Of a DNA stretch of 64,000 bases, positions 35,825 to 45,260 are shown in pieces (the first letter of the stretch is position 1; every line of letters starts with the position of its first letter). The DNA comes from Methylotenera oryzisoli (GTDB taxonomy: Bacteria; Pseudomonadota; Gammaproteobacteria; Burkholderiales; Methylophilaceae), in NCBI RefSeq assembly GCF_004661485.1, contig NZ_PQVH01000013.1, positions 62,001-126,000 on the forward strand, written 5' to 3'. Both the position numbers and the translations under genes were made by a program. The notes beneath the pieces are model-generated. The model was not told where the DNA came from and searched no databases. It saw only the letters and a list, made by a program, of their open reading frames with translations.

Positions 35825-36487
35825 ATGTCAGAAACCATTATTAAACACGCCATTAAAACAGCAGGCACGCTCACTGCATTTGCGCTAGTGGGAACGGCCA
35901 TACTTGCTTATATATTCATCATCACGCGCGCGCCAATAGAGGCAAGTGAAGCCGAGGCACGCCTGGCTCTGTTTTCGCAGATTTTGCCGCATAACACTTA
36001 CAACAATAATCTACTGAAGACAGAACTTACTATCCCGCCTAACCCCCTACTGGGGAACCGTGTTCCTAGTAAAGCCAATATTGCCAAATTAGGAGATGAA
36101 ACTGTGGGCGTCATCCTAGAGGCAATTGCACACGATGGTTACGCTGGTGACATTAAGCTATTGCTGGCCATCCGTGCAGATGGCGCTATCAGCGGCGTAC
36201 GCGTGCTCGCACACAAAGAAACACCGGGACTTGGTGATTATATAGAAATTGAACGCAATACCTGGATCACACAGTTTAGCAATGAATCTTTAACTAAAAC
36301 CGTTGCCAAAGATTGGGCGGTGGTTAAAGATGGCGGCAAGTTCGAATACATGGCAGGTGCTACAATTACACCGCGCGCGGTCGTTAAAGCAGTGGCTAAG
36401 GCATTGCAGTTTTTTAATGAAAACAAACTCTTGTTATTAGAAAACAAAACTGCAGATAAAGTAGCGCAAAGTAAGGACGCGACATGA
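35825..36487 (+). CDS. rsxG: Electron transport complex subunit RsxG (RnfG)
   Basis: The 220-residue protein has one N-terminal helix (about 13-35) and a periplasmic FMN-binding domain with the flavinylation motif AGATITPRAV (Thr180). GYAGDIKLLLAI and HKETPGLGDYI are conserved. It overlaps the rsxE start by 4 bases (ATGA). Confidence 0.95.
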   Translation: MSETIIKHAIKTAGTLTAFALVGTAILAYIFIITRAPIEASEAEARLALFSQILPHNTYNNNLLKTELTIPPNPLLGNRVPSKANIAKLGDETVGVILEAIAHDGYAGDIKLLLAIRADGAISGVRVLAHKETPGLGDYIEIERNTWITQFSNESLTKTVAKDWAVVKDGGKFEYMAGATITPRAVVKAVAKALQFFNENKLLLLENKTADKVAQSKDAT

Positions 36488-37176
36488 GCATCTATAAAGA
36501 AATTACCCTGAATGGGATCTGGAAGCAAAACCCGGGCGTAGTGCAATTATTGGGCTTGTGCCCAACGCTGGCCGTCACCACTAGTGTCGTCAACGGAGTC
36601 AGCCTTGGCTTAGCAACAGTATTGGTCATGGCGGCAGCCAATGGCACCATTTCCCCTGTGCGTAAATATGTTCCCAACGAAATTCGCGTACCTGTATTTA
36701 TTTTAGTGATTGCAGCGTTAGTCACTGTGATTGATTTATCGATCAATGCGTTTGCACACCCACTGCATAAAGTGCTGGGGATATTTATCCCATTAATTGT
36801 AGTAAATTGCATCGTATTAGCACGCGTTGAGTCATTTGCTGCCAAAAATGCGCCAATACCATCGATTCTAGACGGATTTATGATGGGGATAGGCTTAACC
36901 TTAGTATTAGGATTGTTAGGCGGGATGCGCGAACTTGTAGGTAAAGGTACCTTATTCTCAGGCCTAGACCTTGTGTTTGGCCCAGCAGCCAAACAGTTTG
37001 TACTCACGATCATCCCGGATTATCACGGGTTCTTATTGGCAGTGTTACCACCAGGGGCATTTCTAGGCCTAGGCATGTTGATTGCGGCACGTAATTGGAT
37101 GGATATTAGAAACAAAGCAAAATCAGCTGACGAGCATACAACTACATCTGCACTGCAACCAGCGCTCCACCCCTAA
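36484..37176 (+). CDS. rsxE: Electron transport complex subunit RsxE (RnfE)
   Basis: The 230-residue protein has six helices homologous to RsxA with inverted topology (GIWKQNPGVVQLLGLCPTLAVT, LIVVNCIVLARVESFA) and the paired membrane cysteines. It is the last rsx gene; nth follows 16 bases later, as in E. coli. Confidence 0.95.
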   Translation: MSIYKEITLNGIWKQNPGVVQLLGLCPTLAVTTSVVNGVSLGLATVLVMAAANGTISPVRKYVPNEIRVPVFILVIAALVTVIDLSINAFAHPLHKVLGIFIPLIVVNCIVLARVESFAAKNAPIPSILDGFMMGIGLTLVLGLLGGMRELVGKGTLFSGLDLVFGPAAKQFVLTIIPDYHGFLLAVLPPGAFLGLGMLIAARNWMDIRNKAKSADEHTTTSALQPALHP

Positions 37177-37192
37177 CCTGTCAATACAACCT

Positions 37193-37858
37193 ATGAATGC
37201 AGAAAAACGCTTAGAGATATTTAAACGCTTAAAGTTAGCCATCCCTAATCCAGCCACAGAACTAAATTACAGCACGACTTTTGAATTGCTGATTGCGGTA
37301 ATGCTGTCAGCACAGGCCACGGATAAGAGCGTGAATCTAGCCACAGATAAGCTTTTTCCTATCGCCAACACGCCAGAAAGCATTTTGGCATTGGGACTTG
37401 AAAATTTAGAGCATTACATTAAAACCATCGGCTTGTACCACTCTAAAGCCAAAAATGTATTAGCTACCTGCCAAATATTGATACAAAAACACCAATCGCA
37501 AGTGCCACATTCGCGCAGCGCATTAGAGGCGTTGCCAGGCGTTGGCCGTAAAACTGCCAACGTGGTGTTAAATACAGCATTTGGTGAACCTACCATCGCT
37601 GTGGATACGCATTTATTTAGGCTGGGCAACCGCATCAAGCTCGCTACAGGCAAAACCGTGCTGGATGTAGAAAAAAAATACATTAAAACCATTCCGGCAG
37701 AGTTCATGCAGGATGCGCATCATCTGCTTATTTTACATGGGCGCTATGTCTGCACTGCACGCAAACCTAAGTGTGCAGAATGCTGCATAGAAGACCTATG
37801 CGAATATCAGGCCAAAGAATACTACCTGCCACCTAACGCTGGCGTCACCAAAGAATGA
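37193..37858 (+). CDS. nth: Endonuclease III
   Basis: The 221-residue DNA glycosylase/AP lyase has the helix-hairpin-helix LPGVGRKTANVVLNTAFG with the catalytic lysine, the catalytic aspartate in AVDTH, and the [4Fe-4S] motif C-x6-C-x2-C-x5-C (CTARKPKCAECCIEDLC). It removes oxidised pyrimidines. I use ATG 37193 (MNAEKRLEIFKRLK); the longer frame overlaps rsxE. Its stop overlaps the FIST gene start (ATGA). Confidence 0.97.
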   Translation: MNAEKRLEIFKRLKLAIPNPATELNYSTTFELLIAVMLSAQATDKSVNLATDKLFPIANTPESILALGLENLEHYIKTIGLYHSKAKNVLATCQILIQKHQSQVPHSRSALEALPGVGRKTANVVLNTAFGEPTIAVDTHLFRLGNRIKLATGKTVLDVEKKYIKTIPAEFMQDAHHLLILHGRYVCTARKPKCAECCIEDLCEYQAKEYYLPPNAGVTKE

Positions 37859-38934
37859 AAGTCGCCACCAGCATTGTATTGGGGCGTCAGGCACAGCCTG
37901 CACTTGCTGCGCAGGCCGTGAACAATGCCATGAGCAAAGCTGGAATCACTAGCGCCAACGCTGTGATACTGTTATTGACCTCAGAGTTTGCAAGCAACCC
38001 GCAAGCTGCTATTAAAGCCGCGGCCAAGGCTGCAGCTTGCACGCAAGTCACGGGTTGCTCGGCAACTGGCATCTTTACTGAAGAAGACTGGGTGTTGGAT
38101 ACGCCTGCAGCCGCAGCAATGGTGTTTGGCGGCGATATCAAGCTCGAGTTGGCACGCCACAACCATAACCTGCAGCCACTGTTGACGATTGCAGCACCGA
38201 GTGCAATTAATAGTACATGGCTCGACCACCACACGCGCTATGGCGGTATTTCTGGCGACGTTACCGGACAAGGGCCATTCTCGGTATGGCAAAATGCAAA
38301 AGGGGATGTAACAGGCCATATCGAGATGTTTATATCTGGAGTAAAGATGGCAACTCAGGCCGCGCATGGTTTAAGCTTGCTTAGCCCCCCCAAGCTGATA
38401 CAGACCAGCCAGCAGTTTGATGTGCAGCAGCTAGGCAAACATAAAGCGCTTAGATCCTTACAAAAAGCTTGGGATAGCTACCGCAAGACACCAGAGCCCT
38501 TACCGCTACATTTAATCATGGCGGTATATGGTGATAGTGAAAAGGCGATTCTGCAGGGGAATTATCATCAAACCACGATTATCAGTTGTGACGAAGCTGA
38601 CGGCAGCGTCACACTCGCACACACCTTGCCCGTGGGGCAATATTTAAGCTGGGCACTGCGTGATGCCAACAGCGCCCAAGCGGACATGCTGCTAGCGACA
38701 GACGCACTATCAACAGCGCTAGGCAGCACCCCAGACTTTGGCCTACTATTTTCCTGCCTAGGGAGAGGACCATACTTATACGATGGAGAAGACCTAGACC
38801 TAAAAGTCGTGACCAAGCGCTTCCCAAACATGCCATTATTAGGCTTTTATGGTAACGGTGAAATTGCCTGTATCAATGGGCAGAATCAGCTACTCCCCTA
38901 CTCTACCGTTCTTTCATTATTTTCAGCGTTATAG
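37855..38934 (+). CDS. FIST-domain protein
   Basis: The 359-residue soluble protein shows the FIST N domain (about 20-190: VILLLTSEF, QVTGCSATGIFTEEDW, MVFGGDI) and FIST C domain (about 200-355: LPLHLIMAVYG, LFSCLGRGPYLYDGEDLD, LLGFYGNGEIACING). FIST is a sensory, probably small-ligand-binding fold often linked to signal transduction. Here it stands alone without an output domain, overlaps nth and lies 16 bases before the DUF1841 gene that leads to an ECF sigma factor. That context makes a sensory role in the same unit possible, which is inference. Confidence 0.85.
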   Translation: MKVATSIVLGRQAQPALAAQAVNNAMSKAGITSANAVILLLTSEFASNPQAAIKAAAKAAACTQVTGCSATGIFTEEDWVLDTPAAAAMVFGGDIKLELARHNHNLQPLLTIAAPSAINSTWLDHHTRYGGISGDVTGQGPFSVWQNAKGDVTGHIEMFISGVKMATQAAHGLSLLSPPKLIQTSQQFDVQQLGKHKALRSLQKAWDSYRKTPEPLPLHLIMAVYGDSEKAILQGNYHQTTIISCDEADGSVTLAHTLPVGQYLSWALRDANSAQADMLLATDALSTALGSTPDFGLLFSCLGRGPYLYDGEDLDLKVVTKRFPNMPLLGFYGNGEIACINGQNQLLPYSTVLSLFSAL

Positions 38935-38949
38935 CGCAATAGGTATTTT

Positions 38950-39387
38950 ATGAGTTTATATAACCCGAGCCGCGACCAAGCCAGACAGTTTTTATTTGAC
39001 GCATGGGCAAAGTTTAAACAACACGTCCAGCTCTCAGATTTAGAGAAAATTGCGATCGAGGTGATGCAAATGCACCCCGAATATCACACGATACTAGATG
39101 CGCCAGAGCGCTATATGCAGCAACAGTACTTTCCAGAAATGGGGGAAACCAATCCGTTTCTGCATTTAAGCCTGCATTTATCTGTGATTGAGCAAATATC
39201 CATCAATCAACCCATCGGCATTCATGGTATTTACGAACAGCTCAAACAAAAACATCAAGACCAACACCTTGCACAACACGATATCTTAGAATGCCTCGCC
39301 GAAACCATATGGCAATCACAGCGCAATAACACACCATTAGACTCTGCGCACTACCTGAGCCTATTACAACAAAGAGTGGCGGCTTGA
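38950..39387 (+). CDS. DUF1841 family protein
   Basis: The 145-residue protein has the family features NPSRDQARQFLFDAWAKF, ILDAPERYMQQQYFPE and GETNPFLHLSLHLSVIEQ (His-rich helix). It is soluble and largely helical; the function is unknown. It is conserved in betaproteobacteria. One base separates its stop from the sigma factor start, so the two are co-translated. Confidence 0.85.
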   Translation: MSLYNPSRDQARQFLFDAWAKFKQHVQLSDLEKIAIEVMQMHPEYHTILDAPERYMQQQYFPEMGETNPFLHLSLHLSVIEQISINQPIGIHGIYEQLKQKHQDQHLAQHDILECLAETIWQSQRNNTPLDSAHYLSLLQQRVAA

Positions 39388-39388
39388 T

Positions 39389-39946
39389 ATGCACAGCAAT
39401 GTTCACGACTGGCTGAATGAACATGGGGATTACTTATATCGCTTTGCCCTAGCGCGATTAAAAGATACGCATCAGGCAGAGGACGCCGTACAAGAAACCA
39501 TGCTCGCAGCAATTAAGCACAATAGTTTTGCAGGTGATTCATCAGTACGCACCTGGCTCACCGGCATACTCAAACATAAAGTAGTGGATATGCAGCGCAA
39601 GCTGATCCGTGAACAGCCGATATCAGACATTATTGATTTAGATGCTGGCGAAGAAAGCATGGATGACTTCTTTGACAAAACCGGGCATTGGCTAGACAAG
39701 CCGCAATCTTTTGACATGCCAGACCATGCGCTAGAGCAAAGCCAGTTTTTAAGTGTACTGGATGCTTGCATGCAAAAACTACCAAAGAAACTTAAAGCCA
39801 TTTTTATGTTAAGAGACGTACATGAAATGGAGAATGAAAATATTTGTAAGGAACTCGATATTACGCCGACCAATGCTTGGGTAATGTTGTATAGAGCTAG
39901 GATGGTGTTAAGAAAATGTTTAGAGATGAACTGGGTTAAAGGCTAG
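39389..39946 (+). CDS. ECF-type RNA polymerase sigma factor
   Basis: The 185-residue protein has region 2 (DYLYRFALARLKDTHQAEDAVQ in pieces, then ETMLAA and FAGDSSVRTWLTGILKHKVVDMQRK) and region 4 (LPKKLKAIFMLRDVHEMENENICKELDITPTNAWVMLYRARMVLRKCLE, quoted by its ends). A variable acidic linker lies between them (about 75-115). It should direct RNA polymerase to a small regulon, most likely including the metal-peptide operon just downstream. It is followed directly by its likely anti-sigma factor. Confidence 0.93.
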   Translation: MHSNVHDWLNEHGDYLYRFALARLKDTHQAEDAVQETMLAAIKHNSFAGDSSVRTWLTGILKHKVVDMQRKLIREQPISDIIDLDAGEESMDDFFDKTGHWLDKPQSFDMPDHALEQSQFLSVLDACMQKLPKKLKAIFMLRDVHEMENENICKELDITPTNAWVMLYRARMVLRKCLEMNWVKG

Positions 39947-39949
39947 GTG

Positions 39950-40213
39950 ATGAATATGATGACCTGTAAACAAGCCAGCAAACTCATCTCGCAATCTCTG
40001 GACCGTCCGTTATCTTGGTCTGAACTTATGCAGTTAAAACTGCATCTCATGATTTGCGGTGCATGTAACCGATTCAAAAAACAATTGAATCTACTGCGTG
40101 TAGCACTGCAAAGCATCAGAACCAATATGGAAAACAATAGTGCTATTACGCTCCCATTAGCAGCAAAGGCGAGAATAATTGATCAGATAGAATCTGATCA
40201 GCAATCTCAGTAA
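39950..40213 (+). CDS. Putative zinc-type anti-sigma factor
   Basis: The 87-residue protein has Cys6 and the H-x3-C-x2-C motif HLMICGAC (His32, Cys36, Cys39) of ZAS/zf-HC2 anti-sigma factors. There is no membrane segment, so it would be a soluble sensor, possibly of metal or thiol stress. A GTG at 39947 lies immediately before the ATG and either could be used; AAAGG precedes them. Its position directly after the sigma gene is the classical sigma/anti-sigma arrangement. Confidence 0.82.
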   Translation: MNMMTCKQASKLISQSLDRPLSWSELMQLKLHLMICGACNRFKKQLNLLRVALQSIRTNMENNSAITLPLAAKARIIDQIESDQQSQ

Positions 40214-40263
40214 CTTTCGTTAATTGCAATTAGCGGTAACTCTTTAAATTAAAGGAAACGATA

Positions 40264-40590
40264 ATGAACAAAACACAAAAAACCATTTCTCTTGCTATCG
40301 GTGGCGCATTAGCGCTTTCAGTTGCAGCAACCACAGTCAATGCGGCAGAAAACCCATTTACATTAAAAACGCTTGCTAATGGCTACCAAGTAGCTGATGC
40401 GCACGATGCAAAATCTGCCGATGGCAAATGTGGCACAGGTAAGTGTGGCACCGCTGAAAAAGCCAAAGAAATGAAAATGCAAGATGCAAAATGTGGCTCC
40501 AGCAAGACCAGCAGTGCAGAAAAAGCAAAAGAAGGCTCATGTGGCGGTGAGAAAGCCAAAGAGGGCTCTTGCGGCGGTGAGAAAAAATAA
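40264..40590 (+). CDS. hvfA: HvfA/bufferin-like cysteine-rich precursor peptide
   Basis: The 108-residue protein has a Sec signal peptide (cleavage near VNA-A27/A28), then FTLKTLANGYQVADAHD, and a low-complexity tail with five cysteines (56, 61, 77, 93, 103), each followed by glycine: DGKCG, TGKCG, DAKCG and two EGSCG repeats spaced by EKAK. In the HvfA/bufferin family such EGKCG-like cysteines are converted by a DUF692 enzyme to oxazolone-thioamide or thiooxazole groups that bind copper. Modification here is inferred from the adjacent hvfB- and hvfC-like genes. GGAAACG precedes the ATG. It is likely transcribed from its own sigma-dependent start and with the upstream genes. Confidence 0.88.
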   Translation: MNKTQKTISLAIGGALALSVAATTVNAAENPFTLKTLANGYQVADAHDAKSADGKCGTGKCGTAEKAKEMKMQDAKCGSSKTSSAEKAKEGSCGGEKAKEGSCGGEKK

Positions 40591-40613
40591 GCACCAGCAG
40601 ATTGATATAGTGC

Positions 40614-41525
40614 ATGATGAATCGTAGTCCAATTCATGGCGCAGGTCTGGGGTTGAAGCGTGAGCTGATACCCCAGATTCAGTCACTCGACAACCAAACA
40701 TTAATTTCCAATCTCCAGTTTGTAGAAATAGCACCAGAAAATTGGATAGATGCGGGCAGCAAAGCAAGCAAACAGCTAGATTGGTTTGCAGCACGCTATC
40801 CTATCGTATGTCATGGTCTTTGCTTATCCCTAGGCGGCATCAGCCCGCTAAATATTGATTTCCTGCAACAAGTGAAGCAGTTCTTAAACCAGTATGACAT
40901 TGATATCTACACTGAGCATTTAAGCTATTGCACAGATGGTTACCAAGGTAAGCAGGGCTATTTATACGACCTGTTACCCATCCCATTTACCGAAGAAGCT
41001 GTACATTATGTAGCAAAGCGCATTCGCCAAACCCAAGACATACTAGGCAGGCGCATCGGCATAGAGAACGCCTCGTTTTATGCGGCGGCTCCAATCTCAG
41101 AAATGAGCGAGCTAACCTTTCTTAACGCAGTGCTAAGTGAAGCAGATTGCCTGTTGCACCTGGATATTAATAACATATACGTCAACAGCGTGAATTTCAA
41201 TTTTGATGCACCTTCATTCTTGCGTGGCATACCGCATGAGCGCATTATTTATAGCCATATCGCAGGGCACTATCAACAATCGCCAGATTTACTCATTGAT
41301 ACGCATGGTGAAGATGTCATCGACCCGGTTTGGGCGCTCTTAAAAGACGCTTACGACTTATTTGGCGTGTTCCCTACCTTACTAGAGCGCGATAGCAATA
41401 TTCCAACGCTAGGCACCTTGATACATGAAGTGAACAAAATCGCTGATTTGCAGCGTCAGGCGATACCACGCCCCAGTAAGCTTGATGGAAATCGGCCTAC
41501 ACCTCTGACCATTTCAATCAGTTAA
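40614..41525 (+). CDS. hvfB: DUF692 (MNIO) peptide-modifying enzyme, HvfB-like
   Basis: The 303-residue TIM-barrel protein shows the multinuclear non-haem iron ligands of the family: the histidine in IVCHGLCLSLGG, the glutamate in IGIENASFY, the aspartate in LLHLDINNIYVNS, the histidines in YSHIAGHY, the DTHGEDV motif and the glutamate of LERDSNIP. Such enzymes oxidise cysteines of precursor peptides. The probable substrate is the peptide encoded 24 bases upstream. The next gene, 6 bases away, is the DUF2063 partner. Confidence 0.94.
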   Translation: MMNRSPIHGAGLGLKRELIPQIQSLDNQTLISNLQFVEIAPENWIDAGSKASKQLDWFAARYPIVCHGLCLSLGGISPLNIDFLQQVKQFLNQYDIDIYTEHLSYCTDGYQGKQGYLYDLLPIPFTEEAVHYVAKRIRQTQDILGRRIGIENASFYAAAPISEMSELTFLNAVLSEADCLLHLDINNIYVNSVNFNFDAPSFLRGIPHERIIYSHIAGHYQQSPDLLIDTHGEDVIDPVWALLKDAYDLFGVFPTLLERDSNIPTLGTLIHEVNKIADLQRQAIPRPSKLDGNRPTPLTISIS

Positions 41526-41530
41526 CCATC

Positions 41531-42283
41531 ATGACCAACGAACTGCCCAGCTTTCAGCAATATCAATTAGCCTTTACTGCACGCTTACGCGACACACGCA
41601 ACCAACCGATTCCGGTGGGGGTTGCGCCTGAACGCATGGCAATTTATGACGAAATTGTATTTAACAATCTGTTGGAATCTGTCTCTGCATGTTTTCCAGT
41701 CGCACGTAAGACCATCGGTAAAGCTGACTGGCTAAAGTTGGTACGAGCTTTTTTAAAAGAGCACGCTGCAGATTCGCCACTATTCCGCAAAATTCCAGAA
41801 GAGTTCTTAGCCTTTTTGCAGCACACCAATCTGGCGTTGCCACCTTATTTGCAGGCGCTATGCCACTATGAATGGATAGAGCTTTACCTGAGTGCCTTAC
41901 CCGCACCCAATCATCAAGATGTAGACATACATGGTGATATAGCGCGCCAAGTTTTAATATTTACACAGACTATGCAGCTGCTGGCGTACGACTACGCCGT
42001 GCACAAGATATCCCCTAGACATAAACCTAAGGATAAAGCGCCCACGTCTCTGCTGGTACACCGTGATATAAACGACAAAATTAAATTTATCGAGCTAAAT
42101 CCGATGACATTTAAATTGATTACGCTATTAAAATCTGGAGAGTTGACTGCACAACAAGCACTAAACATGCTTGCGGATGAATTAAAACACCCCCAACCAC
42201 AAATCATCATGCAATTTGGATTAGGAGTTTTACTAGACTTGAAAAACCAAGGAATTATTCTTGGTACAGCACCACAGGTATGA
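41531..42283 (+). CDS. hvfC: DUF2063 protein, HvfC-like RiPP recognition partner
   Basis: The 250-residue protein starts with the DUF2063 N-terminal helical domain (LPSFQQYQLAFTARLRDT, ERMAIYDEIVFNNLLESVSACFPVARKTIG) and has a C-terminal region (about 150-245) resembling a winged-helix peptide-binding part. In this family it binds the precursor and the DUF692 enzyme. No DoxX-type HvfD follows; the next gene is on the other strand. Confidence 0.9.
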   Translation: MTNELPSFQQYQLAFTARLRDTRNQPIPVGVAPERMAIYDEIVFNNLLESVSACFPVARKTIGKADWLKLVRAFLKEHAADSPLFRKIPEEFLAFLQHTNLALPPYLQALCHYEWIELYLSALPAPNHQDVDIHGDIARQVLIFTQTMQLLAYDYAVHKISPRHKPKDKAPTSLLVHRDINDKIKFIELNPMTFKLITLLKSGELTAQQALNMLADELKHPQPQIIMQFGLGVLLDLKNQGIILGTAPQV

Positions 42284-42321
42284 TCATCGACGCCTGCCGA
42301 AGAACATACCATTGCCCTTAT

Positions 42322-42516
42322 TTAATCGAAACTAACGGTCTCGCCCTGGCGCGTTTCTAACACAGAAAGCAAGCTCTGCTGCTCAGATGGGTGCATATCC
42401 CACCACCCCTTAATTTCTGGAATGGTACGATAACATCCATGGCAAAAGCCTGTTGTTTCATCAATGCTACAAACCCCGATACAAGGGGATTGCACTTCTA
42501 CTGTATTGTCTGACAT
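42322..42516 (-). CDS. DUF1289 family small protein
   Basis: The 64-residue protein has the cysteine pattern [22 protein letters not shown] (C-x3-C...C-x2-C) and the GWW motif of the family, probably a small metal-binding module. I start it at ATG 42516 (MSDNTVEVQ); the longer frame overlaps secA. It lies 14 bases after secA on the same strand. Function unknown. Confidence 0.85.
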
Positions 42517-42530
42517 TGCTAACCCTATTC

Positions 42531-45260
42531 TTAACTTAATACGCCATGGCACTGCTTGTATTTTTTACCCGAACCGCATGGGCATAGGTCATTACGGCCT
42601 ACTTTAACGCCATCACGCACCATCGGCTGCTGCGCAGCAACATTCGTCTCAGCGGCATCTGATGTATCACCTGCCAGCGCTTCTGCATAGTCTGCATGTT
42701 GGTATTGTACGTTTTCAACTTCTACTGGTCTTTCCACCGCCTCAACATCCGCCTCAGTTTTCACCTGTACCAACATAGTCACTTTGGTTACTTCTGTTTT
42801 GATGATATTGAGCAAGCCTTCAAAGAGTTCAAATGCCTCACGTTTATATTCCTGTTTAGGATTTTTCTGTGCATAAGAACGTAAATGAATTCCTTGGCGC
42901 AGATGGTCCAACGCAGCCAAATGTTCACGCCAGTGGTTATCTAGACTTTGCAACATCACTGAACGTTCAAACTGACGCAAGATATCTGGGCTAGCCAAAT
43001 CTTCTTTTGCTTGATACGCCGCATTGGCCGCTGCAAGGATGCGCTCACGCAATGTTTCTTCGTGCAGGTCGGGGTTCTCTTCCAACATTTTCTGCAATGG
43101 AACCTCTAACCCAAGATCAGCCTTCAACTCACGCTCTAACGCTGGCACATCCCACAGTTCTTCCACGCTATCAGGCGGAATATGGGTAGCCACCATGGTC
43201 ACAATCACGTCTTCACGCATGGCTTTAATGGTTTCACCGACATCCGCAGCTTCTAGCAGCTCATTGCGTTGCTCGTAAATTACTTTACGTTGGTCATTCG
43301 ATACATCATCAAACTCTAATAATTGCTTACGAATGTCAAAGTTACGGCCTTCAACCTTACGTTGTGCGTTTTCAATCGCACGCGTGACCCAAGGATGCTC
43401 AATAGCCTCGCCATCCGGCATATTCAGCTTGCCCATAATCGCTGAAACGCGATCAGAAGCAAAGATTCTTAGTAATTGGTCTTCTAAAGATAAATAGAAG
43501 CGGCTAGAGCCCACGTCACCTTGGCGACCTGAACGTCCACGTAGTTGATTATCTACACGACGTGATTCATGGCGTTCGGTACCTACGATATGTAAACCAC
43601 CGGCTGCCAACACAGCATCATGCACCTGCTGCCAAGCAGCTTTAATCTCGGCCACGCGGCTTTCTTTTTGCGCAGCGGTCAATGACTCATCATCATGCAC
43701 TGCAGCGATTTCAGGCTCAGGATTACCACCCAACACAATATCGGTACCGCGGCCTGCCATATTGGTAGCAATGGTAATTACACCCGGACGCCCTGCTTGT
43801 ACAATAATATGTGCTTCACGCTCATGTTGCTTCGCGTTTAATACCTGATGTTCCAGATTAGCCTCAGTCAATAATTTAGAAATCAGCTCGGAGTTCTCAA
43901 TTGAGGTCGTACCCACCAACACTGGCTGTCCGCGGCTTTGGCAATCTTTAATATCTAAAATTACCGCCTCGTATTTCTCACGTGAGGTTCTGTACACTTT
44001 ATCCATTGCATCCTTACGTTGCATCGGGCGATGTGTAGGAATCACAACGGTTTCTAGGCCATAAATCTGGTTAAATTCGTAAGCTTCGGTATCGGCAGTA
44101 CCTGTCATCCCAGACAGCTTGTTGTACATACGGAAGTAATTCTGGAAAGTAATGGATGCCAGCGTTTGGTTTTCTTTTTGAATCTCAACGCCTTCTTTAG
44201 CCTCAACGGCTTGGTGCAGACCATCAGACCAGCGGCGGCCAGCCATCATACGGCCAGTAAACTCATCCACAATCACGATTTCACCATCACGCACAACATA
44301 GTGCTGGTCGCGATGGTAAAGGTTACGTGCACGTAGCGAAGCATATAGATGATGCACTAAAGTAATATTAGATGCCTCATATAAACTTGAGCCTTCAGCT
44401 AATAAACCAGCCTCGGCCAACACCGCCTCAGCATGCTCATGGCCTTGTTCAGACATCACCACATTCTGTGCTTTTTCATCCACCCAGAAGTCGCCTTCGC
44501 CTTCTTCCTCTTTTTGCGGAATCAGTTTGGCAGCCACTTCATTGATTTGCGTATACAGGGCAACGCTATCATCTGCCTGACCTGAAATAATCAGCGGCGT
44601 ACGTGCTTCGTCAATTAAAATCGAATCTACTTCATCGATCAATGCATAGTTCAACCCACGTTGCACGCGCTCTTCACGGCTATACACCATGTTGTCACGC
44701 AGGTAGTCAAAACCAAACTCGTTATTGGTACCGTAAGTAATGTCTGCCGCATAAGCTGCACGTTTAGCTTCATTAGGCATTTGCGATAAGTTAATACCGA
44801 TTGATAATCCTAAAAAGTTATAAAGCTTACCCATCCACTCCGCGTCACGCTTTGCTAGGTAATCATTCACTGTAATGACATGTACGCCTTTACCAGTGAT
44901 CGCATTCAGGTAGGTAGGCAAAGTTGCTACCAAGGTTTTACCTTCACCAGTACGCATTTCAGAAATTTTGCCAGCGTTCAGCACCATCCCGCCGATGAGC
45001 TGTACATCAAAGTGGCGCATCCCTAAAGCACGGCGACCGCCTTCGCGTACCACAGCAAATGCTTCTGGAAGCAATTTTTCCAAAGATTCGCCATTGGCAA
45101 AACGTTGCTTAAACTCCTCTGTTTTCGCGCGTAGGCCATCATCACTCAACGCCTGCATTGCAGGCTCTAATGCATTAATTTGCTCTACTTTCTGTGCATA
45201 TTGCTTAACCAGCCTATCGTTACGGCTACCGAATAATTTTTTGAACAACGTAGATATCAT
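42531..45260 (-). CDS. secA: Protein translocase ATPase SecA
   Basis: The 909-residue motor protein has Walker [18 protein letters not shown] (101-117), Walker [20 protein letters not shown], the preprotein cross-linking domain, the second helicase domain ([40 protein letters not shown] cut short here) and a C-terminal zinc motif [14 protein letters not shown]. It drives export through SecYEG. The length fits E. coli SecA (901). It starts with ATG 45260. Confidence 0.98.

Follow-up and report, generated by a model that had tools for sequence, protein, structure and literature searches.

In Neisseria, the sigma-E/MseR operon NMB2140-2145 (NGO1948-1943) carries genes for an extracytoplasmic function (ECF) sigma factor, a zinc anti-sigma (ZAS) factor and a DoxX protein together with peptide-maturation genes, all in one operon (PMC2893595). 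Cys4, Cys34 and Cys37 matter in MseR (PMC2893595), and NGO1945 is a DUF2063/RRE protein (PMC12452194). In Haemophilus influenzae, RpoE2 is likewise paired with a soluble ZAS factor, HrsE, and controls a DoxX/DUF2063 cluster plus periplasmic methionine sulfoxide repair (PMC7907618). In Corynebacterium glutamicum, the SigH-dependent promoter PrshA lies within sigH and drives the ZAS gene of the SigH-RshA pair, while sigH has housekeeping promoters (PMC3489674). The locus described here is a five-gene cassette in a 64,000-nucleotide stretch of Methylotenera oryzisoli (contig NZ_PQVH01000013.1; hereafter the window), encoding an ECF sigma factor, a ZAS factor, an HvfA-type precursor peptide, an MNIO enzyme (HvfB) and its DUF2063 partner (HvfC). 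Such precursors and enzymes were recently described as captophorins (fontiphorin, gonophorin and oxazolin; FonABC, NgoABC and HvfABC), which likewise combine a repeated xGKCG precursor with an MNIO enzyme and a PME1 (DUF2063) partner (PMC13097082). The Caulobacter bufferins Buf1 and Buf2 likewise pair MNIO and DUF2063 proteins with an exported Cys-rich precursor. NrsF, the anti-sigma factor of the Caulobacter bufferins, belongs to a different anti-sigma family.

An earlier note on this DNA took the soluble anti-sigma factor to set the locus apart, a claim that comparison did not support, given that MseR of N. meningitidis (PMC2893595) and HrsE of H. influenzae (PMC7907618) are cytoplasmic ZAS proteins. 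The most unusual feature of the locus is instead a promoter-like element inside the sigma gene. Gene families, gene order, a displaced HvfX/HvfD gene, a motif shared between loci and conservation at synonymous sites were all read directly from the DNA. Taken together, they make it likely that an HvfABC thiooxazole-peptide operon is run by the ECF sigma/zinc anti-sigma pair and wired through a candidate promoter embedded in the sigma gene.

Motif and codon constraint within the sigma gene

The embedded motif consists of a -35-like half-site (39845-39851) and a -10-like half-site (39867-39872) and is separated from the anti-sigma gene by 74 bases. It spans the codons TGT AAG GAA ... CCG ACC A, encoding Cys153-Lys154-Glu ... 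Pro160-Thr161 of the region-4 helix-turn-helix, and these codons are enclosed by the Pfam domain Sigma70_r4_2 (ECF residues 124-172). The region-4 helix-turn-helix of sigma factors is the part that reads -35 elements. In the organism's own genome (2.66 Mb), the pattern TGTAAGG-N16-GACYA had exactly two perfect matches, one before msrP and the other in the ECF gene, and a match with one mismatch (TGTAAGT...CGACTA) was located 31 bases before hvfD. An exact pattern ending in GACTAA was unmatched in the window because the embedded copy reads GACCA.

Family-level counts were made on 150 genomes. An ECF match at E <= 1e-40 was present in 70 cassette loci, and in 63 of them the ECF gene contained the motif. 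Across the cassette loci (670,049 bases), the plus strand held five other matches and the minus strand none. Two of the five stood before hvfD (L102 and L107) and two in L109. The fifth, in L103, was located over 3 kb 5' of the sigma gene's end; apart from this last match, no copy upstream of the sigma gene was found in the cassette stretches searched. The cassette of L109 (genome G143) is split, with intergenic copies upstream of a thioredoxin gene and of hvfA, the latter carrying the Neisseria-type -10 CGTCTAA. This thioredoxin gene and a subsequent DsbD-type membrane gene (Pfam) lie between the anti-sigma gene and hvfA, and their own motif suggests that they are further regulon members. A promoter would be expected to stand in such intergenic positions once the sigma gene can no longer provide it. 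Judged by metagenome titles, motif carriers included Betaproteobacteria and, in small numbers, Gammaproteobacteria, Mariprofundaceae, Desulfobacterales, Deltaproteobacteria and Acidobacteriota; Methylocaldum, Methylococcaceae and a Lamellibrachia endosymbiont were also among them. The embedded motif was not found in four loci of one family (L260, L261, L264 and L274).

Synonymous codon choice was analyzed in 201 ECF genes (188 after removal of identical 450-base 3' ends). Loci outside the family were selected by sigma protein similarity and not by motif (the 30 best of 399 genomes, 20 hand-picked from the same list, and the 80 best). Codon usage was determined per locus from the six longest frames of at least 200 codons and the ECF gene, and the remaining columns and Cys codons elsewhere in these genes served as controls. 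Given that related sequences are not independent, no P values are reported. The motif was carried by 62 of 68 family genes whose protein made them eligible (1.4 expected from codon usage) and, outside the family, by 78 of 86 eligible genes among 116 aligned (2.7 expected). Its codons ranked 1, 3, 4 and 7 among 175 columns for synonymous conservation in the family (a second run gave 1, 3, 5 and 8 of 176) and 1, 2 and 4 among 182 columns outside it. Both TGT and AAG were used in all 70 family genes, and residue 160, which varies (Ala, Pro, Thr, Ser), was nevertheless encoded by an NCG codon in 69 of 70. In loci outside the family with at least 60% G+C, the motif Cys was TGT in 47 of 48 genes with Lys or Gln next, against 10 of 55 and 13 of 54 at two further conserved Cys positions in these genes. 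Over all G+C contents outside the family, TGT was used in 89 of 90 genes with Lys or Gln next, versus 9 of 21 with neither.

These counts bear directly on whether the locus is an ordinary cassette, served by one upstream transcript and lacking an internal promoter, in which the motif arises by coincidence from a conserved Cys-Lys-Glu ... Thr-Asn. The ECF gene abuts DUF1841 and the gaps between genes are short, making read-through likely, and the residues encoding the motif are themselves conserved. Protein conservation leaves synonymous codons free, however, and the excess over codon usage inside and outside the family, the CG ending at a variable residue and the association of TGT with a neighboring Lys or Gln all argue against coincidence. 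We consider this explanation unlikely.

Other positions and signals were also screened. ECF promoters just before hvfA and just before the sigma gene were rejected, with no common motif seen by eye in 29 loci (28 with the anti-sigma gene) or at the DUF1841/ECF junctions, respectively. A first candidate in the pre-hvfA gap of the window (about 40209-40240) was not conserved. Terminator-like sites in 37000-42600 numbered 7 (6.3 in shuffles, standard deviation 2.9).

The displaced hvfD gene and the shared motif

The earlier note held that the DoxX (HvfD) gene was absent, which is correct for the cassette locus and incorrect for the genome. Three DoxX-family genes were found in the genome, one of which (C14:214306-214827, 174 aa) passed the model for the HvfX family Cu-binding RiPP maturation protein (NF050144, 127.5 bits, cut-off 80). 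Its product is 60.1-63.5% identical to HvfDs encoded 3' of hvfC in seven more distant relatives. On this other contig, hvfD stands behind msrP (NF003767, 478.9 bits, cut-off 207) and msrQ (NF003831, 182.6 bits, cut-off 130), whose products contain the domains PF00174 and PF01794, respectively. MsrPQ is a periplasmic methionine sulfoxide reductase pair. Loss of DoxX was rejected on this finding; the partner is displaced and linked to methionine repair genes.

HvfD was detected in 57 of the 150 family genomes (E <= 1e-30) at 59 places, 46 of them arranged msrP-msrQ-hvfD (20 of 20 in a first set and 26 of 32 in a second), seven after hvfC and six elsewhere. HvfB orthologs were taken from 85 genomes (E <= 2.8e-75), leaving out MNIO paralogs approximately 40% identical in the same genomes. 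HvfD, sigma and HvfB co-occur: sigma (E <= 1e-40) was present in 73 of these, 54 of which also had HvfD, compared with one of the 12 without sigma; the counts include incomplete genomes and contig ends. The earlier note had proposed searching related genomes for co-occurrence of these families with and without DoxX. As run here, that search bore out the gene order (ECF-ZAS-HvfA-HvfB in 73 of 81 loci, see below) and contradicted the absence of DoxX. Two side observations concern hvfD itself. In L300 and L301 (genomes G064 and G014), a second ECF-ZAS pair without a motif match lies directly 5' of an hvfD copy, and in other families of the order (L155, L158, L165, L178) the DoxX-type gene precedes the sigma gene, giving HvfD-ECF-ZAS-HvfA-HvfB. 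A survey of the MNIO landscape reported oxidored_molybd and ferric-reductase genes in small numbers of such clusters (PMC12452194); these are the Pfam domains present here in MsrP and MsrQ.

A loose form of the motif, (T/C)GTAAG(G/T)-N15-(C/A/T)GAC(T/C)A, was located upstream of msrP in all of the first 20 msrPQ-hvfD loci, and 17 of these had the strict form TGTAAGG-N15-(C/A)GAC(T/C)A. A copy stood directly before hvfD in 17 of 27 hvfD loci. The first 20 loci contained 35 plus-strand matches and none on the minus strand (201,555 bases), and 32 further hvfD places contained 44 and none (165,423 bases). In this further set, a match was assigned before msrP in 20 of 26 msrPQ-hvfD loci and before hvfD in 22 of 32 places. 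Matches in both sets were assigned by distance from stop-to-stop frames, by which a few (L125, L285 and L294) were missed. Lone hvfD copies (L283, L287, L296, L302) retained a match.

The promoter consensus reported for Neisseria sigma-E is GTMAGBWTT, 12-13 nt, CGTCTAAH (PMC2893595). TGTAAGG-N15-CGAC(T/C)A agrees with it in the cores of both half-sites and in spacing, the spacer being 12 nt when counted after a 9-base -35. It departs from it at the third base of the -10 (A, not T) and, in the embedded copies, in not keeping the WTT end of the -35. The likeness is one between promoter sequences.

The shared motif also helps to weigh a different kind of signal at the embedded site, such as an RNA structure, a binding site for a protein (a repressor, for example) or an element controlling translation of the anti-sigma gene. 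The evidence at this site is conservation, and codon conservation as such indicates constraint, not promoter activity; moreover, a constrained codon elsewhere in the gene (GILKHK, below) makes further overlapping signals possible. The same half-sites with the same spacing occur before msrP and hvfD, however, and resemble the Neisseria sigma-E promoter. A test for conserved RNA folding in 68 aligned stretches was negative but weak, the column-shuffled control being likewise near zero, and Rfam returned no match at gathering scores in 36000-43500. A signal other than a promoter is therefore quite improbable in our estimate.

Cassette genes and their conservation

Coordinates of the cassette and its borders are provided in Table 1. 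The five open reading frames given in the earlier note, with their order and positions on the plus strand, were confirmed, and its family assignments were upheld by curated models (Pfam and NCBIfam).

Table 1. Features of the cassette region, in positions of the 64,000-nucleotide window
Feature	Coordinates	Strand	Basis
DUF1841 gene	38950..39387	+	PF08897, 188.8 bits
ECF sigma factor, TIGR02943 family	39389..39946	+	Sigma70_r2, Sigma70_r4_2; NCBIfam TIGR02943
Candidate embedded sigma-dependent promoter, TGTAAGG-N15-CGACCA	39845..39872	+	Inside ECF gene; exact match, synonymous-site conservation
Soluble ZAS anti-sigma factor	39947..40213	+	Family models; C-x25-H-x3-C-x2-C from translation
HvfA-type precursor	40264..40590	+	Signal peptide by eye, leader, 5-Cys core
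HvfB, MNIO (DUF692) peptide maturase	40614..41525	+	Family models; PDB 3bww alignment
HvfC, DUF2063 + NGO1945_C (peptide-recognition) partner	41531..42283	+	Family models; PDB 3dee
DUF1289 gene, downstream border of cassette	42322..42552	-	Family scan

The ECF protein scored 197.8 bits against TIGR02943 (cut-off 162.2), and both of its sigma domains were recovered by the family scan. The anti-sigma protein matched zf-HC2 (PF13490, 34.1 bits, cut-off 22.2) and NF052368 (76.5 bits, cut-off 50), and its translation contains Cys7-x25-His33-x3-Cys-x2-Cys, which fits the ZAS definition C/H-x23-26-H-x3-C-x2-C. Inspection by eye revealed no membrane segment in this protein; its start codon is uncertain (GTG at 39947 or ATGs at 39950-39959). 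HvfB matched PF05114 (325 bits) and NF003818 (390.8 bits, cut-off 360), and its residues 8-285 aligned with PDB 3bww in two stretches. HvfC matched NF050145 (249.6 bits, cut-off 142) and contained both DUF2063 and NGO1945_C domains. A Buf1 identity was rejected, with no DUF2282 match at E <= 1 and the BufB model (NF050167, 255.8 bits) under its cut-off of 310, and the cassette was therefore placed with HvfABC, recently named captophorins (PMC13097082). By these family assignments, the five genes constitute a predicted HvfABC (captophorin-type) peptide cassette under an ECF sigma/cytosolic zinc anti-sigma pair.

The precursor passed the KCGExKCG repeat domain model narrowly (NF050137, 20.0 bits, cut-off 19.5) and scored 28.3 against the HvfA equivalog (NF050188, cut-off 95). 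Its signal peptide is followed by a leader, NPF...K.L..GYQVA, and a core of five Cys in DGKCG, TGKCG, DAKCG, EGSCG and EGSCG. Among 30 precursors compared, 29 conserved NPF...(K/R/Q).L..GYQ(V/I)A and a first DGKC(G/S), the remaining one (L027) being a fragment. Beyond this first motif the repeats varied between loci, some having EGKCG and others EG(S/A)C(S/G); the second form replaced EGKCG in many host-genus loci, repeatedly so in some (for example L012, L008 and L017). FonBC has been reported to modify DGKCG fully and to accept A, R and T at the varied position (PMC13097082). For two repeats, a mass loss of 8 Da is given in that paper, which corresponds to about 4 Da per modified Cys.

Gene context was compared in 81 loci (80 relatives plus the window, without G042, G061, G101 and G082). 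The order ECF-ZAS-HvfA-HvfB was kept in 73, with DUF1841 upstream in 71 of those, and is not due to chance. DUF1289 on the opposite strand formed the downstream border in 44 of the 81, as far as the stretches reach. In the window the ECF start lies 2 bases past the end of DUF1841, and in many loci it overlaps or abuts that end; the sigma gene is therefore probably transcribed from upstream genes. Three of the 73 ordered loci (L063, L067, L071) had an ECF gene split into several frames and retained hvfABC; HvfD was not found in these genomes. One of the eight exceptional loci is a contig beginning at HvfA (L108). Cassettes with hvfABC and no adjoining ECF/anti-sigma genes were seen in L044, L068, L089, L098, L099, L100 and L104, and HvfD was likewise not found in these genomes; G070, the genome of L068, is only 48% complete.

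Proposed wiring and comparison with known systems

In the proposed mechanism, read-through from upstream genes would provide basal sigma, which the zinc anti-sigma protein would hold as MseR and HrsE do. Oxidation or metal attack at the zinc-cysteine site would release sigma, and free sigma would then use the embedded promoter for transcription of the anti-sigma gene (the brake) and hvfABC. It would also use the promoter before msrPQ-hvfD and the one directly before hvfD. By analogy with the captophorins (PMC13097082), HvfB and HvfC would turn precursor cysteines into 5-thiooxazoles before Sec export, and copper would be bound in the periplasm while MsrPQ repairs oxidized periplasmic methionines. 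It is likely, we think, that in this ECF family the gene segment encoding the helix-turn-helix with which sigma reads promoters doubles as a promoter for the same factor, from which the anti-sigma gene and often a metallophore operon are transcribed. Judged by the spread of carrier titles, such an overlap would be old; it may have fixed the Cys-Lys/Gln pair, and would supply a brake without sigma autoactivation, with the copper peptide, the DoxX-type partner and MsrPQ in one regulon.

Whether copper is the main object is less certain. The cassette could mainly serve repair of oxidative or chlorine stress, with a peptide that handles oxidized thiols or other metals. In favor of this, msrPQ is the regulon partner. 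HOCl and H2O2 increase rpoE2 expression in Haemophilus, where RpoE2 controls msrAB, mtsZ and the DoxX/DUF2063 cluster (PMC7907618), and Neisseria sigma-E controls msrAB (PMC2893595). Set against this, gonophorin held one or two Cu when made with added copper and its authors argue for copper detoxification (PMC13097082), and E. coli MsrPQ is copper-induced and acts on and maintains the copper chaperone CusF (PMC9302797). Because of this link between MsrPQ and copper, the two readings overlap, and the purely oxidative one is possible without being the one that we favor.

Several observations weigh against the embedded-promoter wiring. With one mismatch allowed, the genome contained 15 matches versus 14 in a reversed control, which is background, and therefore only exact or well-placed matches count. 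The full motif was not carried by 6 of 68 eligible genes in the family and 8 of 86 outside it, where 30 of the 116 aligned genes were ineligible by protein. Six of the seven motif-less family loci read CGACGA in the -10, and the seventh, L109, has a divergent sigma gene without the motif. No match was assigned before msrP in 6 of the 26 further msrPQ-hvfD loci, and L300 and L301 had none at all. Most embedded copies in the family have CGACCA as their -10, while CGACTA is commoner before hvfD (13 of 17 hvfD copies end in GACTA). The Thr161 codon (39869-39871), for which ACT would give CGACTA, was ACC in 61, ACG in 6 and ACT in 2 of 69 family genes with Thr, while both ACC and ACT occur at the equivalent codon outside the family; the ACC preference may reflect a tuned, possibly weaker promoter or a different constraint. 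A second outlier, the Leu CTC of GILKHK (39569-39571, in TWLTGILKHK), was second strongest in the family (42 of 71 genes, 7 expected) and was also in excess outside it (69 of 115, 23 expected); no element was recognized at this codon, and codon constraint is therefore not confined to the motif. No plus-strand sigma-70-like promoter was found in 37000-42600, all four sites there being on the minus strand (10.2 in shuffles), so the upstream supply of sigma is an inference. Finally, 12 of the 85 HvfB-bearing genomes had no sigma match at the cut-off used, some of them with contig ends or incomplete assemblies, which indicates that the peptide genes can also be controlled in other ways.

If the embedded-promoter wiring is correct, a class of sigma/anti-sigma pairs hides a feedback promoter in conserved codons, where it would be missed by searches upstream of operons. 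It would account for the switching on of hvfABC genes that have no visible promoter of their own, and the 28-base signature could be used to find further regulon members. It would also join, in an environmental methylotroph, a copper-binding peptide, a DoxX-type partner and periplasmic methionine repair that are found piecemeal in Neisseria and Haemophilus.

In comparison with the described systems, the type of operon and the soluble anti-sigma factor are already known. The Neisseria sigma-E regulon includes the methionine sulfoxide reductase msrAB, and its promoter consensus is similar in type and spacing (PMC2893595); in contrast, the repair partner here is MsrPQ, and HvfX/HvfD is encoded with msrPQ. 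The polycistronic Neisseria operon, rpoE included, is autoregulated, whereas here the motif is inside the sigma gene and none was found close upstream. In Haemophilus, rpoE2 neighbors msrAB, away from the DoxX cluster (PMC7907618), whereas here sigma, anti-sigma and hvfABC are together and hvfD is elsewhere. The locus differs from bufferins in lacking a DUF2282 precursor and in the sub-threshold BufB score, and from captophorins in having two of five Cys within EGSCG, a Ser variant not mentioned in the available text of PMC13097082. A sigma-dependent promoter inside a sigma gene, driving a ZAS gene, is known from C. glutamicum. PrshA, which is contrasted there with S. coelicolor and M. tuberculosis, has a different consensus and serves rshA only, with no target operon, and codon-level conservation is not discussed in the available portion of that paper (PMC3489674). 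A promoter inside the ECF gene is likewise not described in the available portions of PMC10771440 and PMC13171946, and searches of the open-licence literature found no report that describes an embedded promoter for this ECF family, its conservation at the codon level or msrPQ-hvfD being governed by such a promoter. What is new, on the sequence evidence, is thus the proposed wiring, in which a motif inside the codons of the sigma gene is shared with msrPQ and hvfD.

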